This document shows, one piece after another, positions 1 to 17,676 of a DNA stretch of 64,000 nucleotides. A program made the position numbers and the translations under genes. Origin of the DNA: Selaginella tamariscina (taxonomy: Eukaryota > Streptophyta > Lycopodiopsida > Selaginellales > Selaginellaceae); contig PUQB01000196.1 in NCBI GenBank assembly GCA_003024785.1, positions 1-64,000 on the forward strand, in the 5' to 3' direction. The stretch's first letter is position 1; each line of letters begins with the position of its first letter. Below the pieces are notes generated by a model, which was given only the letters and a program-made list of their open reading frames with translations, did not search any database and was not told where the DNA came from.

Positions 1-640
1 GATTCGCCTGAGCGATCAGCATTGCACCGGCCCCACGAGGGAAATCCAACTATTAAAACCTATAAGGCTTAGGTGTTGACTGTGGTATTCATTGGATTCT
101 GCCTTGGTGAGTCAACCCCTTTAGGGCGACAAGGGGTACCTTGAACCATGACTAACCCTTAAGGGTTCGAGTGGCTAAGTCATACCCTCGCAAGGTCATG
201 TACTTAGGGTTTTTCAAACCTAGCCTTAGGGAGTTTGCTTAGTAAAACACTCGTGTTCGCCTACGGCGCACGCTCGTGTCCTCACTAAGTACTAGCTCTA
301 AAGGGGTTGTACTCCCGGATGAGGGTGATTCCTCAAGGGGTAAGTGACGATGCCTTAGCTCTATCACGGGGTATGTGTGGGACACATCTCCTTTGTGGGG
401 TTAGGGCATGAGCTTGTTTAGGTCTACTAGGACAGGATCTAAAGTCTACTCGGGTTATCCTTTAGGGTTTAGGAGATGGTCATTCTAGGGGACTTAGAGT
501 AGGACTCTAAGTCTTTTGCCTAATTGGGCCCTTGAGTCAGACTCTTAGGGTTATCTGGAAGACTTAGCGTTGCTCACACATGGTGATGATGCCGAATGGC
601 CACTTGGCAGCCACATGTTGCCACGTGTTGGTCCTTTGGG
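1..640 (+). repeat. Dispersed repeat R1, copy 1
   Basis: This stretch is clearly similar to 37.4-38.26 kb, and in reverse orientation to 46.05-46.64 kb and to 63.02-63.42 kb inside the copia relic. Shared blocks include the phrases around 205-300 (cctagccttagggagtttg, ctcactaagtacta) and 325-420 (gtgattcctcaaggggtaag, gttagggcatgagc). The segment near 100-180 lies in the opposite orientation to its counterpart at 38.01-38.08 kb, so this copy is internally rearranged. There is no coding potential. It is probably retroelement leader or LTR-type DNA, because one copy lies between the primer-binding site and gag of the copia relic. Confidence 0.65.
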
Positions 641-1715
641 TTAAAACTTTGACAATTAGTACCGGAGCTATTTTTACAATCAATAGGACTGCCTAAAGTG
701 TGGTGCATTTTAGGGTTTAATTAGTTCTAAATTCTTGAAGTACTCTATCACTTGTAGCTAACGTCTGAATTCAGCATGGAGAGATGGTTCTGAGATCTAT
801 AACTCTTCAGAGTACACCTACTCCACAAGTGAGTGTGGATTATGGACTTCAATGTTGAAGGTACCACTTGGAAGGCAACTTCCAAGTTGTAGACCTGTTC
901 AAGTTACTTTACCAACTTCCCAAGACGTGGCATGTTAGTTTGTTTTGGTTACAAACTAGATGGGTCTTGTAATATACACATTATTGAAAATTTTCTTTTT
1001 CTTTAAAATGTTTGAATTTGGGATAACACATGATTTGAGAACGTGACTATCATATCGAAATTTACTATGACAAGGAATGAAATCTCCTTATTTGATTTCT
1101 TTTTCCCTATCCTTGGGCCTTTGTCGATGAAGCAGAACACATTGACATCCAATAACACAATATGGCCATGGGTAACATGGGGTAGTGTTGCCTCTTGAAT
1201 ACTTTGCAACTCACTTGTTTGCTCCCTTTCACATTTATCTGTTGACACTATATCATTGGCTATCCCTTTATCATTTAATTGTACATCATCCTTACAAGAT
1301 TTAGATATTGCAGGTGCTAAAGAAAGTGATTTCGGAACTGAAGCCAATAGAAATGGTGATGAAAAATTGAAGTGATCCCTATGGTAATGATGTTTTGAGC
1401 TGCATTATTATCCATTTCCTACATGAACTCTGTCATTCTGACATGTGCACAAGAAATTTTTGCCAAACCCCTCTCTTACCTCATGGTAATGCTGAAAATC
1501 CATGTTCTCAACTGTTTCATTATATCTGCAAAATGATAGTTAGATGACCTTATAATTATCAAGGTATATTATTTACCTTGTTAATGTGTGACCCATGTTT
1601 GAACTAAAAGCTTCATTAATCCTTGAAAATTTATTTTCTGTACAAATATAAACGAAATATACAAAAATGCTCTATGTTACACTCATTTACAACTATTCGT
1701 CACTCTAAGAACTCA
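641..1715. other. Intergenic, no supported gene
   Basis: Moderately AT-rich sequence. A 114-codon open frame lies on the minus strand at 1003-1347, with a charged middle and a hydrophobic tail. It has no recognisable domain and no splice support. It might be a terminal exon of the decayed gene that follows, but I cannot show this. Confidence 0.4.
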
Positions 1716-4624
1716 TTAATAATTCTTTTTTGCTATTACCTTCTGAGTGAGGCGAAGAAGGTCTAGGTCGCTTGTGAGATGGTTCATGATCTTCCGTATC
1801 TTCTGTTGATGTTTCCATGGGTAATGGAGGTGTGAATGATCTGTACTCCTCGAGATAACTTCTAGTCTAATATCTGATTGAAGTTTGTCCTCAGACTCCG
1901 ACATTGAACCAGATTCATCTTCAAAGTTATCGCACTTCTGGGGAGGGAACTTTCCCAAATACTTCCTGTATGGGTTTGTTGCTCTGTGCTGCTTGACTTG
2001 TAATGTTTGGATAACGTACATTGCCGAATACGTCCCTCTCAATTATCGGTGTATCGGATGGAGGTTCAGGCCCATTGGAGTGCAAACAGATGCTTGGCCA
2101 GTCATTTGGAAGTTTAAAATTGTTTGGCGCATTCCTAACAACCAAGTGAACAACCGTATCAATGCACTTCGGATCAGCATCATTCATATAAAATCCTATC
2201 TAACGATGTTTATTCTTCTTGGCGAAGGCAAAAGTATTGGTGACATGAGCAAGAATCAAGAAATAAATACCTGAAAACGTAGGTATCAGTGAAGAGTGCA
2301 AGCATGAATTCAATAATAAATACCTTCTTTGTACATGCTTGCACGGCTAAGTTTCTCCACCAAATCCTCTAGTGTCCTGTCTATCGAAGGATTTTTTGAC
2401 ACCCGATCCATCACGAATAATTGAAACGGTTTCCTACAAGCAGTGATGTTACCCCATAAAGTCTCCGAATCCAACAACAAACATCTGTAGGGCTTGTCGT
2501 GATTCGTAGCATTCTCCTTTATAAGGTTCAACTCGGTTCTCCGCTGCTGAAGGACTGCCATAAGAGAAGGCGTCATTGCAATGTTTTCCTTTTTAGCGTT
2601 GGCGTGCAATAGATTCTTGCCTAGATCTTCCGATTGATTCACCCATTGGACAAGCATATCATCGTTTGTCACATGCAAATATTTGTTGACCTCTTCATAT
2701 GTTGAAGCCGAGGTCCAACCCAGTTTGTGGCAGTGTATTCCCAACCACTCCTTGAAGTGCCTGACTGTCTTCAACTCCATTGCCTTATGAAAAGGAGAGG
2801 TGGGGCTGTTGTTAATCTATAGTTTGCCATCAATCACCAAATCAGCCAAGACTTCCATCTCCTCCATCGTTGTTCCATTTAAAGGCTTCAACCATGTGAG
2901 CTTGAAATCGTTGTCTACATCCTTTAGATTGAACAGACTTAGCCTTTGGCGTTTATGGGTTTCTTTGCAGACTTCTTGAGGGCTCCCTTCACTTGTCTGC
3001 TTCTTCTTCAGTGTTCCTTTTGAAAAGGATTCCATAATCCCCAACCATTTGGCAAAGATCCTATCCTTGGGACAAGAAATCAACATCATCAAAAAGGATG
3101 TTTCCTTCCGCCCACCTGGGCAAAATCAACTACTACAATTTCTTCAACTCTCTGAAAAAAAAGAGACAGATTAATATACCACGAGATAAATCCCGCCCAG
3201 ACAATTTACTTACCCGGTACATCACACATTGTGTATTCCCTGCAGTAGCTCTTTGTGGTCACTGAAGAGATTCCCACACGGCTCGTGTGTGTTTGAACTT
3301 CTCCCATATTTTGCTGTTGTAGTGGTTGGTGTCGACAGCGTCCCATTCCGCTGATAACTTGTGGGTACTGCTCGATTGTGAGATTCGGCTTAGCTAAAAA
3401 CACCGATCTTTTCATCAGCTTTTCATGGGTATGCTCAAAAAATTTTGTTGCCATCGTTCCTTTGTTGTGTTCATCGATAAGTCGTTGGGCTGCCGTTATT
3501 GTGTGCTAGCCACTAATGATGTAATACTTGATTGAGTTTTTTATTCTCCGTCTGAATTTTCATGATTTGTTTTGGTGTTGTGATCCACACTTTGTCAGCG
3601 CCTTTGTTTCTTTCGTACTATGGGCACAAAAACAGCATTATGTGGAATAGTGTAAGAATTGTAGTCCTTCATCTTCTCCATGAGATCGGCTACACGTTCT
3701 TGGTTGAGTGGCCTGTAATTGAAGTTTGGGTTAACGCTGCAATACTTAACCCTACACTCATAAATCCTATCATCCAACATCATTTCCTTGTGGCTTATTG
3801 CAGCATGGGATGCCACAGGTGCAACTGACAAAACGACTATGATTTTCTTCTATGATCCGAATCAACATGTGTGATCCCCGATTGATGCTGTTCTAATGTT
3901 CTTGGCACACTCTTCCAGCTCCTGAAGTTTTCTAAGCAAATTGAACGTGATCTGTAAAGAACCTGAGACCAAGCCACCCTCTCAATCTCCCTTATGATGT
4001 CGCTGTGTTCTTCTTCAATGTGAAGAGGGATGATTGCTCCACTTGTGGATGTTTATATTGTGAAGCAATCTTTGCTGAGAGTACACCTACTCGATGAGTC
4101 TGAAGATCTTTGAAGTAGACATCTAATTGGATCCCCTTCCATAGATGGGCTTTCGTTGAGTTGAAGAAGAACTCCACGGTCAACATCATTAGTGAACATG
4201 TGAACATCATTATCCACAAGTCGACAAGACCACCCAAGATTAATGTTGTAATTGGCGACCTCTGGATCCAAGAACATGACATTAGATGAAATAAGGCATA
4301 TGTGTCGAGCATCGTTCAATCTCGGTTCGTAGCATGCTTTCGGATGCTTGACTAGCACATCTACTTTCCATTGTTTTACTTGTCCATGCGATGTGACAAA
4401 GGTTAGTTTGACAGCAACCATGGTTGTTCCAATGCGCTTCCCGTTTAGTTTGAAATACGGCCAAGTTGATTCCAGAATCCCCCTGCCCATCTCTTCTCTT
4501 GCTCTCGTCTTCAATGTCACCTCAATTCCACATCTGAATACAAAAATGATTAGTTCTTTAAGCACATATCCGAATATAACAGATTTTATTTTAATTCTTA
4601 CCCAGAATTTGACGACGACTCCAT
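1716..4624 (-). pseudogene. Decayed multi-exon gene of unknown family with a ParB/sulfiredoxin-like stretch
   Basis: Read on the minus strand, a start at 4624 gives a 23-nt exon (4602-4624), then a 68-bp GT-AG intron, then an open frame to about 4053 with a regular soluble-protein composition. Frames then alternate: 4053-4150 reads best in a second frame (3992-4312), and returns to the first frame near 4040, past a TAA. Further open blocks in the same direction lie at 3595-3831, 3206-3454, 2817-3092, 2310-2780, 1927-2187 and 1716-2042. The 3595-3831 block contains NYRPLNQERVADLMEKMK, which resembles the start of ParB/sulfiredoxin-like nuclease folds (arginine, leucine and RV-x-x-L spacing). 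I do not recognise the family. Frameshifts could be true decay or the assembly indels seen elsewhere. It may be transposon-associated; no terminal repeats are visible. Confidence 0.4.
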
Positions 4625-4993
4625 ACTAATGACTGAATCTCCTTGCTTGATCAAATCGTCCTTCTACAAAATAATACATTATGAATACAAATCATATAAA
4701 CATGCACACACACTTGTATAAACCCGAATATACAAAAATAATACACTGATAAATTAACATACACCTTGCTTTGTCTCAGAAAAAGTGGACGGGATTAACT
4801 GTCCAAAGCTCATGTTTGTGATAGTGCAAAAGACAGATAACATTTGGTTTTAAAACCATCACAAATGTGAGCTTTGGATAGTTTTACAGAGTTTACTGGC
4901 TTTTACTCGAAATATTATGATAAGATGATAAAAGTAAATAATATGCAACTTATGCGACTTATATATACTAATACACATATATATTTACATATA
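4625..4993. other. Intergenic, nothing seen
   Basis: AT-rich spacer between the decayed minus-strand gene and the first palindrome array. No open frame with coding character and no repeat is evident. Confidence 0.5.
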
Positions 4994-5833
4994 AGGTGGG
5001 CGGGATTTATCCCGCCACCCCTTCTATGCCTCATGAAATGGTGGGCAGGATTAATCTTGTCACCTTTCTAGAGCCCCTGAATGGGTGTGCAGGATTAATC
5101 CTGCCACCCTTCTCGGTCTCAGAGAGAACTAGGCATGATTTATTTGGCACACCCCTTCAGTGACTCCAAAAAGGTGGCGAGATTAATCTCGCCCACCATG
5201 TAAGGGATGGTGAAATGAATCTCGCCACCCTCTCAGTCCCCTCAATTGGTATGTTGTAAACCTTCTACGTCTCAGACAGAGATGTTTGGGATTGGTTCGA
5301 CTCACCAATGGAAGAAAAAAGAAGGGTGGCGGGATTCATCCCTCCACCAGGCATAAAAGGGTCAGCAAGATTAATCCCGCCTCCCAGGCCCTTCCCACAA
5401 GCCATGGGCAACAAGATTAATCTCGCCGCACGCTCATGCCCTGTGTGGAATGTGGCGGGATTAATCCCACCGCCTAGGCCCATCACACAGGCCATGGGCG
5501 GCGAGATTAATCCCGCCGCACGCCCATGCTCTATGCAGAATCCGGCGGGATTAATCCCACCGCCTAGGCCCTTCTGACAGGCCATTGGCGGTGGAATAAA
5601 TCCTGTTGGATTCCATGCAAGGCATGCGTAAGCGACGGGATTAATTCCGCTGCCTAGGCCCAGCACGTAGGCCATGGGCGGTGGAATTAATCCTGTTGCT
5701 CATGAGGCTAACCGAATAGCCTGCCTGAAGGGCGGCGGGATTAATTCCGCCACTGAGGCTTTAACCATATAGCAGCGGGATTAATCCCACCGCTCACGGG
5801 GCTAACCAAAGAGCAGCGGGATTAATCCCGCTG

Positions 5834-5836
<3 letters not shown>
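4994..5836. repeat. Palindrome array A, about 18 units
   Basis: An imperfect palindrome with core GGCGGGATTAATCCCGCC recurs roughly every 40-48 bp, with poorly conserved spacers. Clear units are at 4995-5020, 5089-5104, 5176-5193, near 5450, 5498, 5541, 5632, 5730 and 5772, and at 5812-5835; others are eroded. Several variants keep perfect dyad symmetry through matching changes on both arms (GCAGGATTAATCCTGC at 5089, GGCGAGATTAATCTCGCC at 5176, AGCAGCGGGATTAATCCC with its matching arm at 5812). The array ends directly at a (CA)n tract. The overlapping open frames on both strands come from the palindrome and are not genes. Confidence 0.9.
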
Positions 5837-5874
<38 letters not shown>

Positions 5875-6194
5875 ACACATATATATAATATATATATATT
5901 ATATATATATATATATATAATTATATATATATATATAGGAGTGTGCGTGTGTGTGCGAGAGATAAAATTAATAATCAATAAAATTATACAGATACACACA
6001 CACATATATATATATATACTGGTACACATAATATATAGATACTGGTATACATAATATATGTATGTATATTTGTGTATATATATATCTTGTGTATGCTTGT
6101 GTGAGTGAAACAAATAAAATCATACAGATAAACAGGAGTGTGCATGTGTGTGCAAGAGATAAAATTAATAAATTAATAAAACTATACAGATACA

Positions 6195-6271
<77 letters not shown>

Positions 6272-6330
6272 AGGAGTGTGCATGTGTGTGCAAGAGATAT
6301 ATAAATAAATTATATTATTAAGATACACAC
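5837..6330. repeat. Compound (CA)n/(TA)n microsatellites
   Basis: (CA)n at 5837-5872 is followed by long (TA)n to about 5936. A second (CA)n-(TA)n block lies at 6193-6262. The flank 'gtgtgcatgtgtgtgcaagagat' type phrase recurs near 5940, 6137 and 6275, so the block was duplicated as a unit. Open frames here encode only valine-cysteine or tyrosine-isoleucine runs. Confidence 0.9.
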
Positions 6331-7480
6331 ACATATAAATGTATATGTGAATAAAAATAAATAAATAAACCCAGGAGTGTGCATGTGAGAGAGAGAGAGA
6401 GATATCTCACGTGTATGAGAGAGGGAGATTTCACAGTCGCCGCTGCCACCTTGCTTCTTGAAACCCTAAGAATATACCTAAACCCTAAAAGGAATAGAAT
6501 ATATATTAACCCTAATTGAATATTTCTTTTAAGAATATATTTAAACCTTAAAAAGAATAAAAGATAGATTCGCTCTAAATGATATTCTTTCATTATATTA
6601 TCAGCGTGTGCGTGGGTGTATCACATACACCCCAAAAATAAAAATCATGTAGGGGTTTAACATGTGTGTGTCCATGAGAGTGTTAAAGTTTCACGTGTAG
6701 CAATACATATATACACACAGTATTATACACATAGACATACATACATATTAGTACATAATATTACAAACAAAGTACATATTATGGATGCATAGTGTGTATG
6801 TATGAGAGAAGAGAGATATACATATTATGAATCATGCATGGTGTGTATATTTGAGAAAAGAGAGATACTACATATTAATATGGATCATGCATGGTGTGTA
6901 TGTATGAAAGAAGAGAGAGAGTGTTAATAAATTAAATTCATATACATTGCATATATTAATACACATATATACATACACACGTGTATATACACAGACATAC
7001 ATACATATTACATGTGTAAATTCAATGTGTTACATAGGGTTTAGGGTTTAAGTTTAGGGTTTAGGATGGATCATGCATGGTGTGTATGTATGAGAGAAGA
7101 GAAAGTGTTAAAAAATTAATTTTGTACGCATTGCATATATTAGTACACATATATACATACACATATTATACACAGATAACATACATAATACATAATATTG
7201 TAACATCAGTACATATTATGGATCATGCATGGTGTGTATGTATGAGAGAAAGAGACATGCTACATATTATGGATCATAATCATGCATGGTGTATATGTAT
7301 GAGAGAAGGGATTATGCATGGTGACAATATGTATGTATGAGAGAAGAGAGAGAGTGTTAACAAATTAAAATCGTACACATTGCATATATTAGTACATATA
7401 TATACACACACGTGTATACACATAGACATACTATATATATATATGTAAATTCAATGTGTTACATACCAGACAGACTGAGT
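6331..7480. repeat. Minisatellite with interstitial telomere-like motif
   Basis: A phrase close to ggatcatgcatggtgtgtat followed by gtatgagagaagag recurs near 6825, 6883, 7066, 7216, 7268 and 7312. It alternates with an acacatatatacatacacac-type phrase near 6700, 6961, 7145 and 7390, giving a loose higher-order unit of roughly 150-200 bp. At about 7037-7065 there are three TTTAGGG-type plant telomere units. No gene is seen. Confidence 0.7.
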
Positions 7481-8639
7481 ATATATAAATCATACATGTG
7501 TTGAACATGATGTTTTTCAATAAAGAAGCAACATGTTTCTCAAGTTTGATTTAGGGCAATGTGCATGTGTGTGCATATGTGTCTCTGTAAGTGCTTTTAA
7601 TGCGTGTGCACATGTATATATAAATTTATGATTGTGTTTATATATGTGTGCAAAACAAACAATGAATAATTAAGAAAATAATATTAATAAACACACTATG
7701 AACATATTTTAAATTATACATAATATATATGATTTTATCTAATATATAGCCATATATAGTTTTAATAATATATATTAATTTAATATTAATAATAAGGTTT
7801 AACACTGGAATATTCTTGAAATAATAAGAATTTAATTGAGAAAATCCCATTAATATATACAAATGTAGAAATTATTGAAAATTAAGAATAAGACTAATTT
7901 AATTATGATAATGAAGTTTAATATTGGAATATTCTTTCAATATTAAGAAAATAATAAAGATATCCCATTAATAATAGGAAATGTAATTAATTACTCGAGT
8001 AATTAAGAAAATATATATAAACAGACTATAAATATATTTTAAATAATACATAATAATATATCAATTTATTTATTGTATAGTATATATATATATAATATAT
8101 ATAATATATAAATATAAACTTAATAATATATACTTGAATATTAAGAATGTAGAAATTACTAAAATTTCATAATATTAAACAGCTTGAATCACTTGAATAA
8201 CATTAAATACAATTTAAACACTCATTGAAATTGAAGAGTATATATGTCAGAGTTCAGTTATTTGTGTCAACTCATATTAAATTTTATTTTCTGTTCTTTC
8301 CAAAACTTTTGAATTTCTGACATAAGTATTGTCGGTCTGACATGTAAATTTTGAAAATGTATTTAATTTCTCACTCAAATTCAAATTTGGTTCTTTCTTC
8401 GACAAGGTTTTTCTTTATTTATTTTTTTCACTTTTCAGATTTTCTTTTTTCTTTATAATGATCAGTTCAGGAGCGACATTAAATTGGATGTGTTATTGTT
8501 TATAGGAAACCACAGCGCCTTCAGTGCTATTTACAAATAAGTATTATAAACAAATTTAGATATAATTATAAAAATTCACTCTCTTACATTCTCTCTTAAA
8601 ATTAGAATTTAGGGGTTTAAAATGCATTAGGATTACAAT
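7481..8639. other. Very AT-rich spacer
   Basis: Long AT-rich DNA with short internal repeats, for example 'tttaa(c/t)a(c/t)tggaatattctt' near 7797 and 7918 and (TA)n near 8081. No coding sequence is supported. Confidence 0.6.
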
Positions 8640-9862
8640 ATATTCCGTTAGGGATTTATCCCGTTTAAATATCCTTCTAACTTAATATTCTCGGCTAGCC
8701 GGGGCAGCAGAATTAATCCGGCCATTTCTTTTTCGCCTCTTAGAAGAGGTGGCGGGATTAATCCCACCACCATCTTTTAATAGCCATGGCAGAATTAGTC
8801 AGGACAATACTTCTCCGCCTTTGAAAAAGAACGGCGAGATTAATCCCGTTAATAACTCTCTCAATTGATAAAGAGTTACCTGAATTTATTAGAAAGAGTT
8901 ATCAGTGGGATTAATCCCGCCAACCATTTTAGAAAACAGAGAAAGGGTGCCAGGATTAATATCACCACTACTTCCCTATTTTAAATATTTGTGGGCAGGA
9001 TTTATCTCGAGATCTCTTTAAAATCATAATTCGAAAAGAGTTGTGGGCGGGATTAATTCCGCCGCCTATTCCCGGTCATTAGAGTTGTGGGCGGATTAAT
9101 CCCGCCGCCTATTCCCCGTCATTAGAGTTGTGAGCGGGATTAATCCCGCCGCCTATTCCCCGTCATTAGAGTTGTGGGCGGGATTAATCCGTCGACTCAC
9201 TCCGAATGGGTAAAGTCAGCAGCGGGATTAATCCCGCTGCCTCTCTCCGACGAGGAAGATCTGGCGACGGAATTAATCCCGCCACCTCTTCCTCATCGGA
9301 GGGAATTGTGGTGGGATTAATCCCGCCGCCTATTCCTCGTCATTAGAGTTGTGAGAGGGATTAATCCCTGCCTATTCCCCGTCATTAGAGTTGTGGGCGG
9401 GATTAATCCCGTCGACTCACTCCGAAGGGGTAAAGTCGGCAGCGGGATTAATCCCGCCGCCTCTCTCCGACGAGGAAGATCTGGCGACGGAATTAATCCC
9501 GCCACCTCTTCCTCATCGGAGGGAATTGTGGTGGGATTAATCCCGCCGCCTTCTTCGACGAGGAAGATCCGGCAGCAGGATTAATCCTGCCGCTTTTCCT
9601 CGTCAGAGAGAGTCCATGGCGAGATTAATCATGCTGCCTCTCTCCGACGAGGAAGATCCGGCGGCAAGATTAATCCCGCTGACTCTCTCTGATGGGTTAG
9701 AGTCGACGGCGGGATTAATCTCATCACTCTCTCCGAAGGGGTAGATTCGTCGACGAGATTAATCCTACCAACTCACTCCGAAGGGGTAGAGTCGGCAACG
9801 GATTAATCCGCCCACCGTTCCTCATCAGAGGGAGTCATAGACGGGATTAATCCCGCCCATCA
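8640..9862. repeat. Palindrome array B, about 27 units
   Basis: This is the second and denser array of the motif in array A, with core GGCGGGATTAATCCCGCC and a spacing of about 42-46 bp. Units lie near 8650, 8701, 8750, 8787, 8830, 8900, 8947, 8990, 9044, 9086, 9129, 9174, 9219-9240, 9260, 9308, 9350, 9393, 9439, 9482, 9528, 9575-9590, 9616, 9658, 9703, 9745, 9790 and 9836. Spacers are partly conserved here (tccgacgaggaagatc, cattagagttgtg), unlike array A. Units at the left edge are the most eroded. Arms sometimes change together (GCAGGATTAATCCTGC at 9575). Confidence 0.92.
9120..9552. repeat. Higher-order tandem duplication inside array B
   Basis: About 210 bp starting near 9120 are repeated at an offset of 219 bp, covering five palindrome units and their spacers with few differences. 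This shows that array B grew recently by unequal exchange or slippage of multi-unit blocks, not one unit at a time. Confidence 0.85.
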
Positions 9863-9881
9863 GTTGTATTAATGAAGCATC

Positions 9882-10340
9882 TAGAACATGTGGCTCTTAC
9901 CAATGAGATATCTACTTTGGTGTTGAACAAAAGAGCAAGAATCGCTGAGTGTATTGTAGAGCAAAAATATGATCTAGAATGGATTAGGCACACGACGATT
10001 GCTAATCTTAAGGAGTGCCACTTTTGTATATACCAAGAGTTCTAAAGAAAAAGGCGCTTGTTTCACATTTGCTCTAAAGTCTGGAACTTTTAGTGATTTC
10101 CCCTTCAGTAGAATAGGTAACAAACTTAACTCTCTTTCTCTCTCACACATAGAGTTCCATCTTTCTAACGCAAATTGTATGTCAAATAATGGATTCAAAA
10201 CTAAGAAGTGGGAAGGTGGAATGTTCTATAAACAGTGTCAATTGAAGATTAAAGTGAATCTAATAGAGTTTGAGGTTTTTGTGGCTTTGTGGGGGTGCAT
10301 GTGTATGTGTTTGAGTGGTCATGGCGAATGTCAAGGTTTA
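9882..10340 (+). pseudogene. Gene fragment A (coiled-coil-like family F)
   Basis: The frame from 9882 reads as a charged, probably helical stretch (…STLVLNKRARI…VEQKYDLEWIRH…), clearly homologous to fragment B at 15698. A second homologous block follows at about 10040-10110 in another frame (SGTFSDFPFSRIGNKL), and a third near 10230-10290. Frames are broken between blocks. Nucleotide similarity to 15.68-16.2 kb is continuous, so this is one side of a diverged segmental duplication. The function of family F is unknown. Confidence 0.6.
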
Positions 10341-10349
10341 TTGTTGATG

Positions 10350-11621
10350 TAAATAAAATACATTATAATGATATTGTATTTACTTATTATGTTTAAATAT
10401 AGTTATTTAATAAATATATATTAAAGCTTTAAAATAAATCCGTTATTAAAAAACTAAAAGGTGTTATGAACTCTAGTTACAAGAGCTTAAAATGCAAGCA
10501 TATTAGCATTAAATTTCTCACACATTAGAAGATGTAATCATTGTAAGATTAATCCATTACAATCTTCACATGCATGTGTGTCTGCTGGCTGTGAGTGATT
10601 GTGTGTTGGACAAGTACACAACTTTAACAACTCATATAACAAGCACATACATGTGCAGAGTATAAGTATATACAGAATTACTAGCTTCATAGTGTTATGT
10701 TAAATGAAGATGGACATATAATACCATCTAATTTTGGACGTGTGCTAAATGCAGATGGACATAAGAGCACATTAAGTATTAGGCTTTATATAATGTATGT
10801 GTATGCGTGAGAGGGTACATTTTTACATTAAAAGAACATCAAATATTATTCATCCTTCAACAGGTGTATATATTTATTAAACATATATTACAAAAAACAA
10901 AACATAATTTATTATGTGGCTGGATGCGTTTGGACCACACTTCGTTAACACAGTCTCCCATATTATATTACCTATTCGGCTTCATAGAAAGAGAATTCAC
11001 TTTGTTGGAAAACCTGGGGTAACACTGTGCACTTTGCATACATGACACAATATAGAACCCTGCATAAGATATTGTGTAAACCCTAGGTGTAAGAAGAGTA
11101 TTAATAAAAACCATTTTTCATGTTTTGCACACAAAGATATTTAAATGTATAATGTGCCAAATGAATGTACATCAAATCTCAGAAATAATCTCCTCAAAAA
11201 AAAAAAAAAATTAAAGCTCTTACCATGATATCAATTTAACTTACCATGATACAAATTTAACTATGTTCTAGAGATTACTTATAAAAATTAAAATGTATGG
11301 TATGTTATGATAGAATAGATTGTTAAACATTTACAAGGGGAACAAATTCATAAATTAAGCCCTAACCAATTTTTATATGTAGATTTATTATATACACATG
11401 TTTTCGTAGGTCCTTGGAAGATCAAAGTTTCTTGCATTACAAAAGATGGATCCCTTCTAGATATGACTATTGGAATGACAAACCATTGGATGTTTGTTAT
11501 GAAGCATTACACACGTAATATTTCAGCACGTGAAAATTATTTTTAGACACTGAGGTCTTGCCACGTGTATATAAGGGGTTTGAGGGTTCATTAGAACCCT
11601 ATATTCTCCTTAGTTCTTGGG
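10350..11621. other. Spacer, right part of segmental duplication
   Basis: AT-rich. The stretch 10985-11015 (agagaattcactttgttgga) matches 17198-17220, so the duplication shared with 15.7-17.26 kb extends to here. No gene is seen. A short A-tract lies near 11196. Confidence 0.5.
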
Positions 11622-14126
11622 ATGGAGGATGATGCTTTTGAAGGGGATTTCACTATCGGTGAGGAGTACTTAAACTCCTCCAACGAGGAGCTTACAGAGG
11701 AAGAGTATGGGGTCTTCTTTGACTCCATAATCAATATTGAAGAGATCACGGTGCGTAAATTTAGGTTTCTATAAACACATGGTACTTTTAAGTTTTTATA
11801 AACACATGATACTAGTTAAACGAGTAACATATACGTTTGCCAGCATATATAGTCATTTTCAGTTGCTAATGCTATATTCGTGCATCTACTAAATGAATTA
11901 CTTATTATAAAAGGGAATTTAAAAAATATTAAAATAATCAACCTAAAAGTAGTGTTATAGCCTAGGCATGTAGAAAAATATAGTCTTAATTTATATAATT
12001 TACCTACTCTACTTGTTAATATATGTACTTCACAATTAAAAAGCTACCCTCTAATCCTCCTACAGGAAGATACACTAACTGGAAAGGTGGCGGAGACGTC
12101 CACTAATGAGGTATAATAAATATCAATAATATTCTTAGAGAATAATAGTGCATTATTAGCATAAATTATAGGAGTAATAACAATGCTATTCACTTCAGGC
12201 ATATTCAGTGATTCATTTAGCATGTCTTCTATTATTTTAAAATTAACATGCCAAGTTTCCTTTTCTTTTTTTCCCCTTTAAGACAAGCTTAATTAAAATT
12301 CTATGTGTATAAAGTATCAAATATACATGTACACAGACAACTTAGTGACCTTTAATTCTATTGGTTAATATTATATACTTGACAACATCTTTTGAGCCCT
12401 CTAATTTTCCTCCTCCAGGAAGAGACGATTGCAAAGGTGGCAAAGACGTCCACTACCGAGGTAGAAAACTATAATAAATATTAATAATATTCTTAAGAGA
12501 ATAAGAGTATGTTAATACAGTCTATAGCATAGATTATATGAGTAATAGTGGTGTTATTCAGTTTTGTACACACTCCACGTATTCACTAGTTCATCACTAT
12601 GTCTACAGTGGGTAGATTAGATTCTTGGAATCTCTGCCATTGTAATGTGCACAAACTTAGCAGTAAAACAATGTATTAATCTCAAATATGCATAGTGGCT
12701 TATTACATAGAAAGCAATAACAAATTCATATAGTGATGTTGTTCAACTTCTACGCCCATGCATTTTCTTATTTATTAGTATATTCTACATCTAAGTGAAT
12801 TAGATATCTGAATTTAAAATTAATGTGCCATGTTTTTCTTTCTTTAATACATGCTTAATTAAAATCTAACATGTGTAACAAATTTGTTTCATTGTATCAA
12901 CTATACATAGAAAACTTATTGACTCTTGTTACCCTAAATAATGTAAAGCATAGGTTTAGGTTTAAACCCGCTCATGAATGCTAGGGCTGCGTTCGATAGA
13001 TACATGAAATACAAACCATGCACTCCTTACATATAATATACATAGAAATTAAGCTAGTTGTAAACCCTTCTAATTTTGCACATGTTTAATTTGAATTACA
13101 CAATCACACAAATATACCAAGTGTACATGAAACCTTATCAAAATATAAAACTTAATATAAGTAGTACATTACTGCATGATGTATAGAAACTCACTATATA
13201 TTTGCTTTATCATTTGATTTTTTATTACTTAAAACATTTCTTTGTTTTTCTTCATGCATGCCATTTAGAATGGAACGCCCCAGGAGCATGAGAAATCACA
13301 AAAGAGGGAATTAGAGTCTCGTAGTGACATTGCAAAAAGGTAATTTATCTTCACATTTGTTTGCTCTTGTTTTAAAAGATTCTCTTTATCATATCAGGCA
13401 GAAACGAGACAAGGGCGGTAGGTTTGTTCGTCATGAGGAGGATGTAAACAGGAGGTATGTTTTCAAACTAATTATTACTCATAATATACTTATATTTTTC
13501 AGGTACATTATACATTACTTAGCTATTATTCATCATAGTACATTAATATGATACATTATACATTATCTAAGTACGGTTTGAATGCTATAAATGTTAATCT
13601 GATGCAGATGTAGTAATGTGGTGGAACTAGTACACATTGGAGAAGAGGGCCAGAGGGCCCTAAAACACTCTGTAATCCATGTGGAATTAAATGGGGCCGA
13701 GAGGTACGAGTTAGACAAACACTAATACACATACACATATATTATGTTATTTGTCATATACATGCTGAGGTGCATGTGCAATATTCAATTTACAGAATCG
13801 AATGGAAAAGACAAAGAAAGCAAGGTTAATTAAGTCGTTAGCATTGAGAATACATTTATTTAAATTGGGCAATTCTACTACATTTTATACTTACCACACG
13901 ATGTGTATATAAATGTCTTCATAAATAAAATTGAAATTAGACAACTAAGTTAAACTAGACTACATGTTTTAGGTCTCTTAGTCAACCAATACTATGGCAA
14001 TGTGCATGAAAGAAATGTAGACCACTACTTATACTAAATAAGTTTAAGCAAGAGTATCTATACACATTCTAACCTACACACATATATAAGCAATACATAT
14101 ATATTTGCAGGTTCATGGTAGATTAA
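11622..14126 (+). CDS. Small GATA-type zinc-finger protein, eight exons, one base missing in the finger exon
   Basis: Exons by GT-AG and phase: 11622-11750, 12066-12110, 12419-12460, 13269-13339, 13398-13454, 13608-13703, 13796-13824 and 14111-14126, giving about 161 residues. The N-terminus is acidic (MEDDAFEGDF start). Exons 2 and 3 encode near-identical short peptides (VAETSTNE, VAKTSTTE), so one exon was duplicated. A basic region (QKRDKGGRFVRH) precedes the finger. Exon 6 encodes RRGPEGPKTLCNPCGIKW, a plant GATA finger half. The first Cys pair (CSN then C) lies one base out of frame at about 13615-13618 (aatgtgg where aattgtgg is expected), and all later phases fit if one T is missing. 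Spacing between Cys pairs would be 17 residues; most plant GATA factors have 18. Such factors bind GATA sites in the nucleus. The basic tail after the finger is short. Confidence 0.72.
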
Positions 14127-15697
14127 ATTTGTTTGCATTAAACACAAATGGGATGACTATTCATTTGACAGGGATGATTCAAGAAAACTCCCTCTTAAAC
14201 AAGGAATTATCGTCTCATTACAATCATCAAAGGTGGTTAAATGTGTGTTTTTGAGTTTGGAAGAAGGGGCATATTCAAAAAGAGTGAACACTACAATTTA
14301 ATAGAAGAAGGGGCATATTCAAACATAAGAGTAAACACAACATTTTGACAGAATGTGTAAAATAAGTTCTCATTATAATGCATGTTTTCGAAAGTGTAAC
14401 TCAAAAAGCAAACTATGTGATGAATTTATAATATAACGGAAAGTCAAATATTAACATATGGTGAATATGTTAAGGAATTGGTTTAAGATCTAATATAATT
14501 AAAATATTATTCGTTGTTTGCAATATTTTAACGATGGTAATTATAAGTAATACTAAGTGGAATAATTACTAAGTTCAAGTGACATGATTTGAACATGTAT
14601 AACTTGAAATTTTAGTTAGTTATAAGAACACACTTTGTATTCAAGTTATTTAATTTGACTAACTTATTATGAAGTTGTCTCATGTGGGATCATGAGAATG
14701 AAATAACATAATAACTTTTGGTAATAAATGAATTTAATATTATATTCTTATCAATGTAGTTTTAGTGTATATGGCACGATTTTAAAAAAAAAATGTTGGA
14801 AACATACACTTACATTTTTGGTTTATTGAGTATAAAAAAACTTGTATAATGAAGGCGTTTGGCGCACGCTTGTACATTTCATTATTAACTCTTTAAACTT
14901 GAAATTTATAACTTTTTTACAACATGGAGATTGATTAGTTTAATCTTTAAACAAGGTTGATTCCTTGGTTAATGAAAGCATTAATTTGAAGATCTCCATT
15001 TTGCTTAAAACACTAGACAATATGCAAGAACGTTTGAGTATATATAAGTTTTGGTGCATATACCTCTTTAGAAAAGTTATTATCTAGTGGGATTTTAAGT
15101 TGATTTTTGAAATCAACTTCAAATATAATTATTCAAAAAATAAAAAATAAATAAATTCTTGACTCTACATCACGGTCGTAAATGTGGTATTCATAAAATA
15201 TATAAACTATGTATATTCAGTCATCTAGAATATAGGAAAGTGAGACTTTTTGTTTTAATTAAGGTTCAATGGTGTTTCTTGAGTTTAATTCAATATTCAA
15301 AACAGTATGATATATCGAGTAGCGACATTAGTTCAATAAGTTTGTGTCCCTTGGTAATCATAATTCAAAGTTCTTAATGTATGGTTCAATTTTGTACTCA
15401 TTCTTATAAATTTCTTTTGTGAATCCACTTGTTATCTCATTGCGGTACTCATTCTTATAAATTTCTTTTGTGAATCCACTTGTTATCTCATTGCGGCCTA
15501 GGTCGGTGTTTGTTATGTGTATCCCTGGTTTGTTAATTTGCCTCTGAGGTAATCTCTCTCTCTCACTCTCCCCCTAGTGCTGTGTACTCTCCCTCTGCTC
15601 CATGTTTTTGAATTTATTCTTAATGAGTTTATCAGCTTTTGTTAGATATCACAAGTTATAAACTAGTGAGAAATGCTATCTTGGTACATATCGGACT
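14127..15697. other. Intergenic spacer
   Basis: AT-rich, no coding sequence supported. It contains the 51-bp tandem duplication listed separately. Confidence 0.5.
15394..15495. repeat. 51-bp perfect tandem duplication
   Basis: The sequence beginning gtactcattcttataaattt at 15394 is repeated without change from 15445. Perfect identity implies a recent event or an assembly stutter. Confidence 0.92.
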
Positions 15698-16140
15698 TTG
15701 GAAGATGTGGCTCTTGCCAAGGAGATAGCTAGTTTGGTGCTGAACAGAAGATCAAGATTAATCAAACGTACTGTAGAGCAGAGAGATGAGCTAGAACGGA
15801 TTAGACACGCGATGATTAATAGTCTTAAGAAGCGCCTCTCTAAACTTCATTACTTTTGGCATAGTTCAAGAGAAAATGGTGCTTATTTTACGCATGCTTA
15901 ACGGTCTGAAACGTTTAGTTATTTCCCATTCAGTAGAACTGGTAACAAACTTATCTGTCTCTCTCTCTCTCACACACAGAGTCTCGTACTTCTAACGCAA
16001 ATATGTATGTCGAAGACTAGATTCATTTACTTACCTCAGCTCTCAAAACTGAGGGGGGCAGGTGGAATATCTTGTAAATGGTGATGTTGCAACTCAATTG
16101 AAGCTTAAAGCGGACCCAGTAGAGCTTGAGGTTTTAAGGT
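15698..16140 (+). pseudogene. Gene fragment B (coiled-coil-like family F)
   Basis: A 67-codon frame (15698-15901) with LVLNRRSRLIKRTVEQRDEL looks like an amphipathic, charged helix. Downstream blocks near 15905-15950 (FPFSRTGNKL) and 16060-16130 (VNGDVATQLKLKADPVELEV) lie in different frames. They correspond to blocks of fragment A. This copy is less eroded than A, yet no full gene with start and stop can be assembled. Related pieces lie on the minus strand near 45.6 kb and possibly 18.1 kb. Confidence 0.6.
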
Positions 16141-16441: not shown

Positions 16442-17143
16442 ATATAACATAATCACCATATTTGCTATGTAAATAACAACATATACTTTGTTTACTCACA
16501 TACTACATGATATATACGACTCATATATACGTGTATGTATATTTATGTATTACCTTCCCGGTGGTGACATACCCTACTACCTCTTCACTAACAACGTGCC
16601 CACTTATTTGCATATTCTTATTGACATTTGTATTCATACAATATACTATATTTATACATATATATATATGGAAGTTTATAAATCACGTGTGTATAAAATA
16701 ATACGTAGTAAAATTTATGCGTGTATGTCTTAAATATGAATGTAGTTCATTGTTTAGATATGATACACATACCACAAGGAGCTATGGAGCATATAACACA
16801 TAATCACCATATTTGCTATGTAAATAACAACATATAGTCTTGTTTACTCACATACTACATGATATATACGACTCATATATACGTGTATGTATATTTATGT
16901 ATTACCTCCCCGGTGGTGACATACCCCTACTACCTCTTCACTAACAACGTGCCCACTTATTTGCATATTCTTATTGACATTTGTATTCATACAATATACT
17001 ATATTTATACATATATATATGGAAGTTTATAAATCACGTGTGTATAAAATAATATGTAGTAAAATTTATGCGTGTATGTCTTAAATATGAATGTAGTTCA
17101 TTGTTTAGATATGATACACATACCACAAGGAGCTATGGAGCAA
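16442..17143. repeat. 351-bp tandem duplication
   Basis: About 16442-16792 and 16793-17143 are almost identical, including the phrase ggtggtgacataccc and the final caaggagctatggag. Differences are a handful of single bases and small indels. This is a young duplication inside the right arm of the larger segmental duplication. Confidence 0.9.
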
Positions 17144-17676
17144 ATATATACTATACAGATATCTCATTATCCATGTCCATGATCATTAGATTTGTAAAGG
17201 AGAATTCACTCTGTTGGAAAACTGTGGTGGATGCAAGAGATACTCTATAGAACCTATTAGCATAGTTATAATTACATATACAAGTTGATGGAGATTTAGA
17301 TATTCATATATGTACAATATATTGCCTATGTGTAAGAAAGAGGAAGAGAATATAGTTATGTATGGTCTTACAATAAATAATAGTACGTAAGTATGTTGTT
17401 ATTATCACAACCTATTTAAAATTAATTATAAATAAGCATATTTTACATCAAACAAACAAATCCGATTTATAAACTTTTTTAATTAAACTTATTTTAAAAT
17501 ATTTAATAATTAATTGATTATATTAAGTAAATAATAATTTTTTTAACTACATTTAATAGATTTTAAAACATCACCCAAATGAAAGTCTTAGAGCTAAGCC
17601 TTTGATAGCTACACAGAGTGTGGTATGGGTAGGAATCCAGGTTATAGTTGTTTCTTTGTATGCTGGATTCTGCAGC
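17144..17676. other. AT-rich spacer, end of segmental duplication
   Basis: The similarity to 10.98-11.02 kb ends near 17260. The rest is AT-rich with no coding potential. Confidence 0.45.

Follow-up and report, generated by a model that had tools for sequence, protein, structure and literature searches.

The two palindrome arrays described here, from a 64,000-nucleotide stretch of Selaginella tamariscina (contig PUQB01000196.1, positions 1 to 64,000; hereafter the window), are internal parts of a dispersed DNA transposon of about 14.8 kb with terminal inverted repeats (TIRs), and each of them immediately precedes one of two divergently oriented gene blocks. We predict, with a probability of roughly 0.6, that the arrays serve as binding sites through which a dimeric factor controls the transposon's own genes, much as the VANC arrays of Arabidopsis do. 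This prediction of a control site follows from the position of the arrays at both gene starts, their density, the constraint on the motif and its symmetry.

The original prediction placed about 45 copies of a palindromic motif in two clusters of the window, and a count of 46 units in the same places bore this out. Array A (positions 4996 to 5835) contains 19 units and array B (8645 to 9860) contains 27, neither array being assigned a strand. An iterative matrix scan returned 42 units in the arrays and two weak matches outside them, and four degenerate units, two in each array, were placed by hand from the spacing. The spacing itself is regular, 37 of the 44 unit-to-unit steps within the arrays measuring 40 to 46 bp, where 40 to 48 bp had been proposed. 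At up to one mismatch, GGGATTAATCCC has 27 matches in the window, compared with 0.08 expected from shuffled sequences. The consensus core had also been read correctly, although no window unit is identical to the 18-bp core; in the copy of the element designated C80, 23 of 47 units carry it exactly.

To place the arrays in the genome, the motif was sought in the source assembly (G000; 300.7 Mb in 1,391 contigs), where 59,903 places were found at up to two mismatches and none with a reversed control. Among the 100 places listed, which are all exact and lie on contigs C1 to C3, 99 have another listed place at most 1 kb off and the remaining one sits inside an identified array. The element surrounding the arrays begins with a TIR and the leftward genes, continues through array A, an AT-rich centre and array B, and closes with the rightward DUF7869 gene and a second TIR; it has a left half of ∼5.1 kb, a centre of ∼3.6 kb and a right half of ∼3.8 kb. 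This order was found in full, or in all but an end lying beyond the stretch, in copies a, e, h and C80 and in one copy in g; copies b, c, d and f comprise parts only, d including a run of 2,500 N. The outer ends carry a 27-bp TIR, ATGCA-N-GTTGTAACTAAA-N-TGGGCATG, which at up to three mismatches has 2,310 forward and 2,186 reverse matches in the assembly (4,496 altogether; control 0). Identical 4-bp target site duplications (TSDs) were observed in 8 of 17 end pairs, compared with a rate of 0.4% for mis-paired ends, and 5-bp duplications in none of the 17. The other nine pairs have no TSD, and copy e, judged by eye, likewise has none. The TIRs and the fixed 4-bp TSD together show that the element is a TIR DNA transposon.

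Judging from the TIR numbers, the assembly would hold the equivalent of roughly 2,250 full-length elements, which may make up a tenth of its sequence; this estimate is rough because many copies are partial. For annotation, the element seemingly accounts for most of the ∼60,000 copies of one palindrome. At one locus, next to a second TIR type (ATGCAT), array B is retained upstream of the DUF7869 match. The structural idea had been said to fail if the motif were simply the repeat unit of a known satellite or transposon; the arrays are indeed internal to a dispersed transposon, but not to one that was found in print. The open literature, searched also for GGATTAATCC and DUF7869 and with subscription papers and preprints outside its scope, yielded no description of the element, nor is one given in the available passages of PMC5735166, PMC10398659, PMC10741241, PMC3627910, PMC13182070 and PMC8885841. 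Exact matches outside the plant, which occurred in seven viral-contig stretches with one site each and in 49 stretches from bacteria and archaea, a single one of which has two sites, were taken as unrelated. In five short contigs of metagenome-assembled genomes (L095, L101, L105, L107 and L117, from Prevotellaceae and Bacteroidales), the exact 18-bp core stands once within ∼50 bp of the contig end, perhaps as an unrelated bacterial repeat.

The genes next to the arrays were read by conceptual translation, as were all start codons and exons. The right half codes for a Pfam DUF7869 protein, a putative transposase judging from its place in the element. The assembly has at least 300 DUF7869 matches, with the best 150 of 4,250 candidates scored, and 14 control genomes have none; the named relatives are two, from the liverworts Calypogeia fissa and Riccia sorocarpa. 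In the C80 copy, which is flanked by the TSD ATAA, the DUF7869 gene is open and encodes 1,021 amino acids with one 54-bp intron. Array B of this copy ends at 11116, and the probable start codon of that gene follows 153 bp further, at 11269; array A starts at 5248, and the leftward gene has its first likely ATG near 4777, ∼470 bp off. On the opposite strand, the left half opens with a long frame, 424 amino acids of which constitute L063, and later frames match the NIF phosphatase family. No relative of L063 was found among 2,796 candidates at E ≤ 0.001. A Pfam scan of open reading frame (ORF) pieces (10 from copy h, five from C80 and one from L063) returned only DUF7869 and NIF over the cut-off. 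One motif unit stands alone within the left gene block of the window (3177 to 3200, unstranded, from the matrix scan); its C80 counterpart, at element position 3471 and with two mismatches, lies between two long frames of the left gene, probably in an intron.

To assess constraint, we compared the motif with the spacers between its units. In 20 arrays, the information per position was 1.31 to 1.79 bits in the motif and 0.18 to 0.60 bits in the spacers. Because units had been chosen by motif similarity, a comparison with homologous spacers was made in 12 of the 20 arrays. The motif was less diverged than the homologous spacer in nine of the 12, the ratio of motif to spacer divergence being 0.10 to 0.41 in seven. 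For arrays A and B of C80 the ratios were 0.17 and 0.77; copy h gave 0.34 and 0.10, copy e 0.39 and 0.14, copy a 0.76 and 0.41, and the arrays g A1 and g A3 gave 1.07 and 0.24, while the two window arrays reached 1.10 and 1.42. As far as the sequences can be read, these ratios are in keeping with constraint that acts in the active family and has been lost in a dead copy, intactness being known for the C80 DUF7869 gene alone. Arm changes in the window are mostly C>T or G>A (0.67 at CpG sites, 0.81 at other G/C arm sites), and the level of change in the ATTAAT centre is not higher there (0.030) than in C80 (0.032).

Out of 2,300 spacer pairs, 267 were homologous in direct and 187 in inverted orientation, with 2.3 false pairs expected; the two orientations are roughly balanced in C80, h and e, and mostly direct pairs occur in a, g A1 and the window. 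The earlier statement that the spacers of array A are not conserved is thus half right, since many spacers fall into a few families, in both orientations. If the arrays were a neutral minisatellite that grew by slippage, with the palindrome merely as its repeat unit, the tandem periods of 44–45, 87–90 and 220 bp, one stretch being 95% alike, would be readily accommodated, as would the window copy and g A1, where the motif is kept no better than the spacer. However, the retention of the motif against diverging homologous spacers in nine of 12 arrays, together with the occurrence of spacers in both orientations, makes such a neutral origin highly improbable.

It had further been claimed that many variants stay symmetric through paired changes on both arms. 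In the 46 window units, 152 of 230 arm positions at k4-8 were paired, compared with 142.8 expected (standard deviation, sd, 4.7; p = 0.035), and at k4-12 the count was 240 of 414 (222.3 expected, sd 7.5; p = 0.012). When near-duplicates were left out, the 43 remaining units gave p = 0.016 at k4-12. Taken alone, array A had p = 0.057 and array B p = 0.12. A larger set comprised 461 units from 11 sources, 157 of these units being kept after de-duplication. In the units kept, the core arms (k4-9) showed 664 of 942 paired positions, compared with 656.4 expected (sd 7.7; p = 0.17–0.18). Changes there fell on a single arm in 261 cases, about equally on the left (127) and the right (134), and on both arms in 35 cases (32.0 expected), 18 of them complementary. 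An excess was found in the outer arms (k10-12; 194 of 471, 173.0 expected, sd 9.2, p = 0.0145) and over k4-12 as a whole (858 of 1,413, 829.3 expected, sd 12.6, p = 0.0143), and none in the flanks (k13-21; p = 0.31). Taken singly, one of the 11 sources was below p = 0.05 at k4-9, two at k10-12 and three at k4-12. All these p-values tend to be too small because the tests ignore the relatedness of the units.

Paired changes are accordingly not confirmed as a rule: the arms of the core vary independently, and a weak excess remains in the outer arms. The core arms do not support covariation as evidence for a hairpin, and such evidence is weak once the outer arms are included. Independence of the two arms had been named as the finding that would undo the structural idea; in the core it weakens the basis of the hairpin, and the k10-12 excess stands, so that a small structural or copying effect may act in the outer arms. 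Selection for a cruciform or hairpin, or arm-to-arm copying that keeps the arms symmetric, would be in line with the excesses at k10-12 and k4-12 and with the k4-12 result of the hand-placed window set, but it has to contend with a core that has no clear pairing excess and in which 261 changes hit one arm while only 18 are complementary, and we regard it as very improbable. A symmetric core with independent arms fits half-sites read by a dimer better than it fits a hairpin, and among the three options originally offered the binding site of a dimeric protein agrees best with independently varying core arms.

We therefore favour the arrays as sites of a dimeric factor that controls the genes of the element. 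A homodimeric DNA-binding protein would occupy many sites 44 to 46 bp apart, and this occupancy would keep the promoters of the element active, either by activation or by protection from silencing. The factor may be encoded, or exclusively used, by the element, which is the least certain step. A spacer could be duplicated or inverted between two symmetric sites with both sites unharmed, and spacers in both orientations would be explained because the motif is symmetric. If true, this would be a clear case of a symmetric binding site shaping the evolution of an array, with spacers flipping freely.

The arrays lie directly upstream of both gene blocks, a position equally suited to an element that recruited a dimeric host factor of the GARP, homeodomain or E2F-like type for its promoters and has no factor of its own. 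The half-sites GGATT and GGCGGGA in the motif presumably resemble known plant half-sites. Yet all 100 motif places listed are in arrays, though these are exact matches only, out of 59,903 places, and isolated sites at host genes may exist as well. Tens of thousands of long sites would act as a heavy sink for such a factor; recruitment of a host protein is possible but rather unlikely. The palindromes could instead be recognition sites bound by the DUF7869 protein as transposase, like the subterminal repeats of CACTA elements. Although both halves of the element have arrays, those of C80 are located at gene starts, with ∼3.8 kb separating them from the right end and ∼5.2 kb from the left, which renders this role improbable.

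Several observations weigh against binding sites for a dimeric control factor. Besides the pairing excess over k4-12 in the 157 units, three of the 12 divergence ratios are 1.07 or higher (those of g A1 and of the two window arrays), and another two lie at 0.76 to 0.77. The 12 arrays are not independent, the coding halves of copies h and e being 99% alike, and the measured divergence of the motif is lowered because units were picked by motif similarity. The high ratio in the window may in part reflect faster decay of a GC-rich motif, given the C>T/G>A excess. Finally, no DNA-binding domain exceeded the cut-off in the element ORF pieces scanned, and the first left frame is broken in C80 where L063 is open.

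A more specific version of the control-site reading, in which the element has its own epigenetic switch independent of VANDAL, is tentative and in our view unlikely. Here, the putative orphan leftward protein, with its NIF-type phosphatase exon and a possible likeness to a DNA amino-methyltransferase core, would bind the arrays as a dimer and keep thousands of copies unsilenced, and the symmetric site would let the array grow either way. The left protein contains the stretch YRPLNQERV...SGQHTITAAQ, which is reminiscent of ParB; a ParB-like identity was set aside, as ParB_N (PF02195) gave 0 candidates in the genome search and the Pfam scans did not support it. A stretch resembling a methyltransferase core in degenerate form, WVFDYCTRGSVLKECYLRHTCVFAVEKD, was seen by eye in the left gene (L061, 2066 to 2485, minus strand), and methyltransferase identity was likewise rejected since Pfam did not recognise it at E ≤ 10. 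A separate repeat family carries a DNA amino-methyltransferase exon (PF01555), with at least 150 matches when the best 150 of 739 candidates were considered; four of its places were read (L065 to L068). For the right-hand protein, no PDB structure matched the model of a truncated DUF7869 relative (P0121; mean predicted local distance difference test score, pLDDT, 64) at E ≤ 0.001, and this model lent no clear support to an RNase H fold. The C-terminal region of P0121 (∼270–350) resembles BAH domains, with a best Foldseek E of 0.01 in this low-confidence model and an E of 0.3 in a profile search.

The window copy is a dead fragment of the element, spanning about 1048 to 9880, in which neither the TIRs nor the right half were found. 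Its degenerate left half, the leftward gene block (1048 to 4988, minus strand; BLAST matches at 1048–1981 and 1980–4988), is 90–94% identical to eight places in the compared loci when window positions 1 to 16000 are searched, and its reading frames are broken. No match to about the first 1.07 kb of the element, left TIR included, was found in the window. An inverted repeat (4796 to 4885, unstranded; each arm ∼25 bp), read by eye, lies between the leftward gene block and array A and has a counterpart in the C80 copy. The AT-rich, microsatellite-bearing centre delimited by BLAST (5836 to 8640, unstranded, GC 26%) shares ∼81–82% identity, for most of its extent, with the centres of copies a, c and g. 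Comparison with other copies places the break of the element ∼25 bp past array B (9861 to 9885, unstranded); beyond array B, neither the DUF7869 gene nor the right TIR was found in the window, and positions 1 to 16000 match no other locus past this point by BLAST. The window otherwise contains frames for IDD zinc-finger and PPR proteins, as well as an NPH3 match that is weak, at 22.4 bits with a cut-off of 27. The best matches of the PPR frames are Gb_31440, whose prefix we take to be Ginkgo-type, and a Cryptomeria sequence, at identities of 37% and 32%, respectively. A 351-bp tandem duplication with 97% matches is located at 16447–17146, and no RNA family reached its gathering score in the window or in L061.

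Among known systems, CACTA/En-Spm elements are large plant DNA transposons with subterminal repeated motifs that are bound by an element protein, and they are defined by CACTA ends and a 3-bp TSD. The element described here differs in its ATGCA ends, its 4-bp TSD and its internal arrays at gene starts, and by its ends and TSD it does not belong to CACTA/En-Spm. Sola elements have a 4-bp TSD, include some members above 15 kb and have been reported in moss (PMC10741241, PMC3627910). Our element shares the 4-bp TSD and a TIR length within the reported range, and by TSD and size alone its class is nearest to Sola; the Sola passages available in these two papers do not mention palindrome arrays. 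In the Arabidopsis VANDAL/VANC system, a short motif forms tandem arrays that are non-coding and located upstream of genes and in introns (PMC5735166, PMC10398659). The arrays described here resemble VANC arrays in that the motif is dense in the element, non-coding and next to gene starts; a full likeness would include binding by an element protein that clears silencing marks. The VANC21 motifs reportedly all point the same way along their arrays, in contrast to the motif described here, an 18-bp palindrome whose spacers run in either direction. Unlike VANDAL, moreover, our element has TIRs with a 4-bp TSD and a DUF7869 gene, and the Pfam scan of its ORF pieces detected no MULE family, PF03017 appearing only at E = 0.14. 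The likeness to VANDAL is thus one of predicted working, without membership. If it holds, a high-copy plant transposon outside VANDAL has converged on dense arrays of its own control site, and self-made escape from silencing becomes testable as a convergent strategy.

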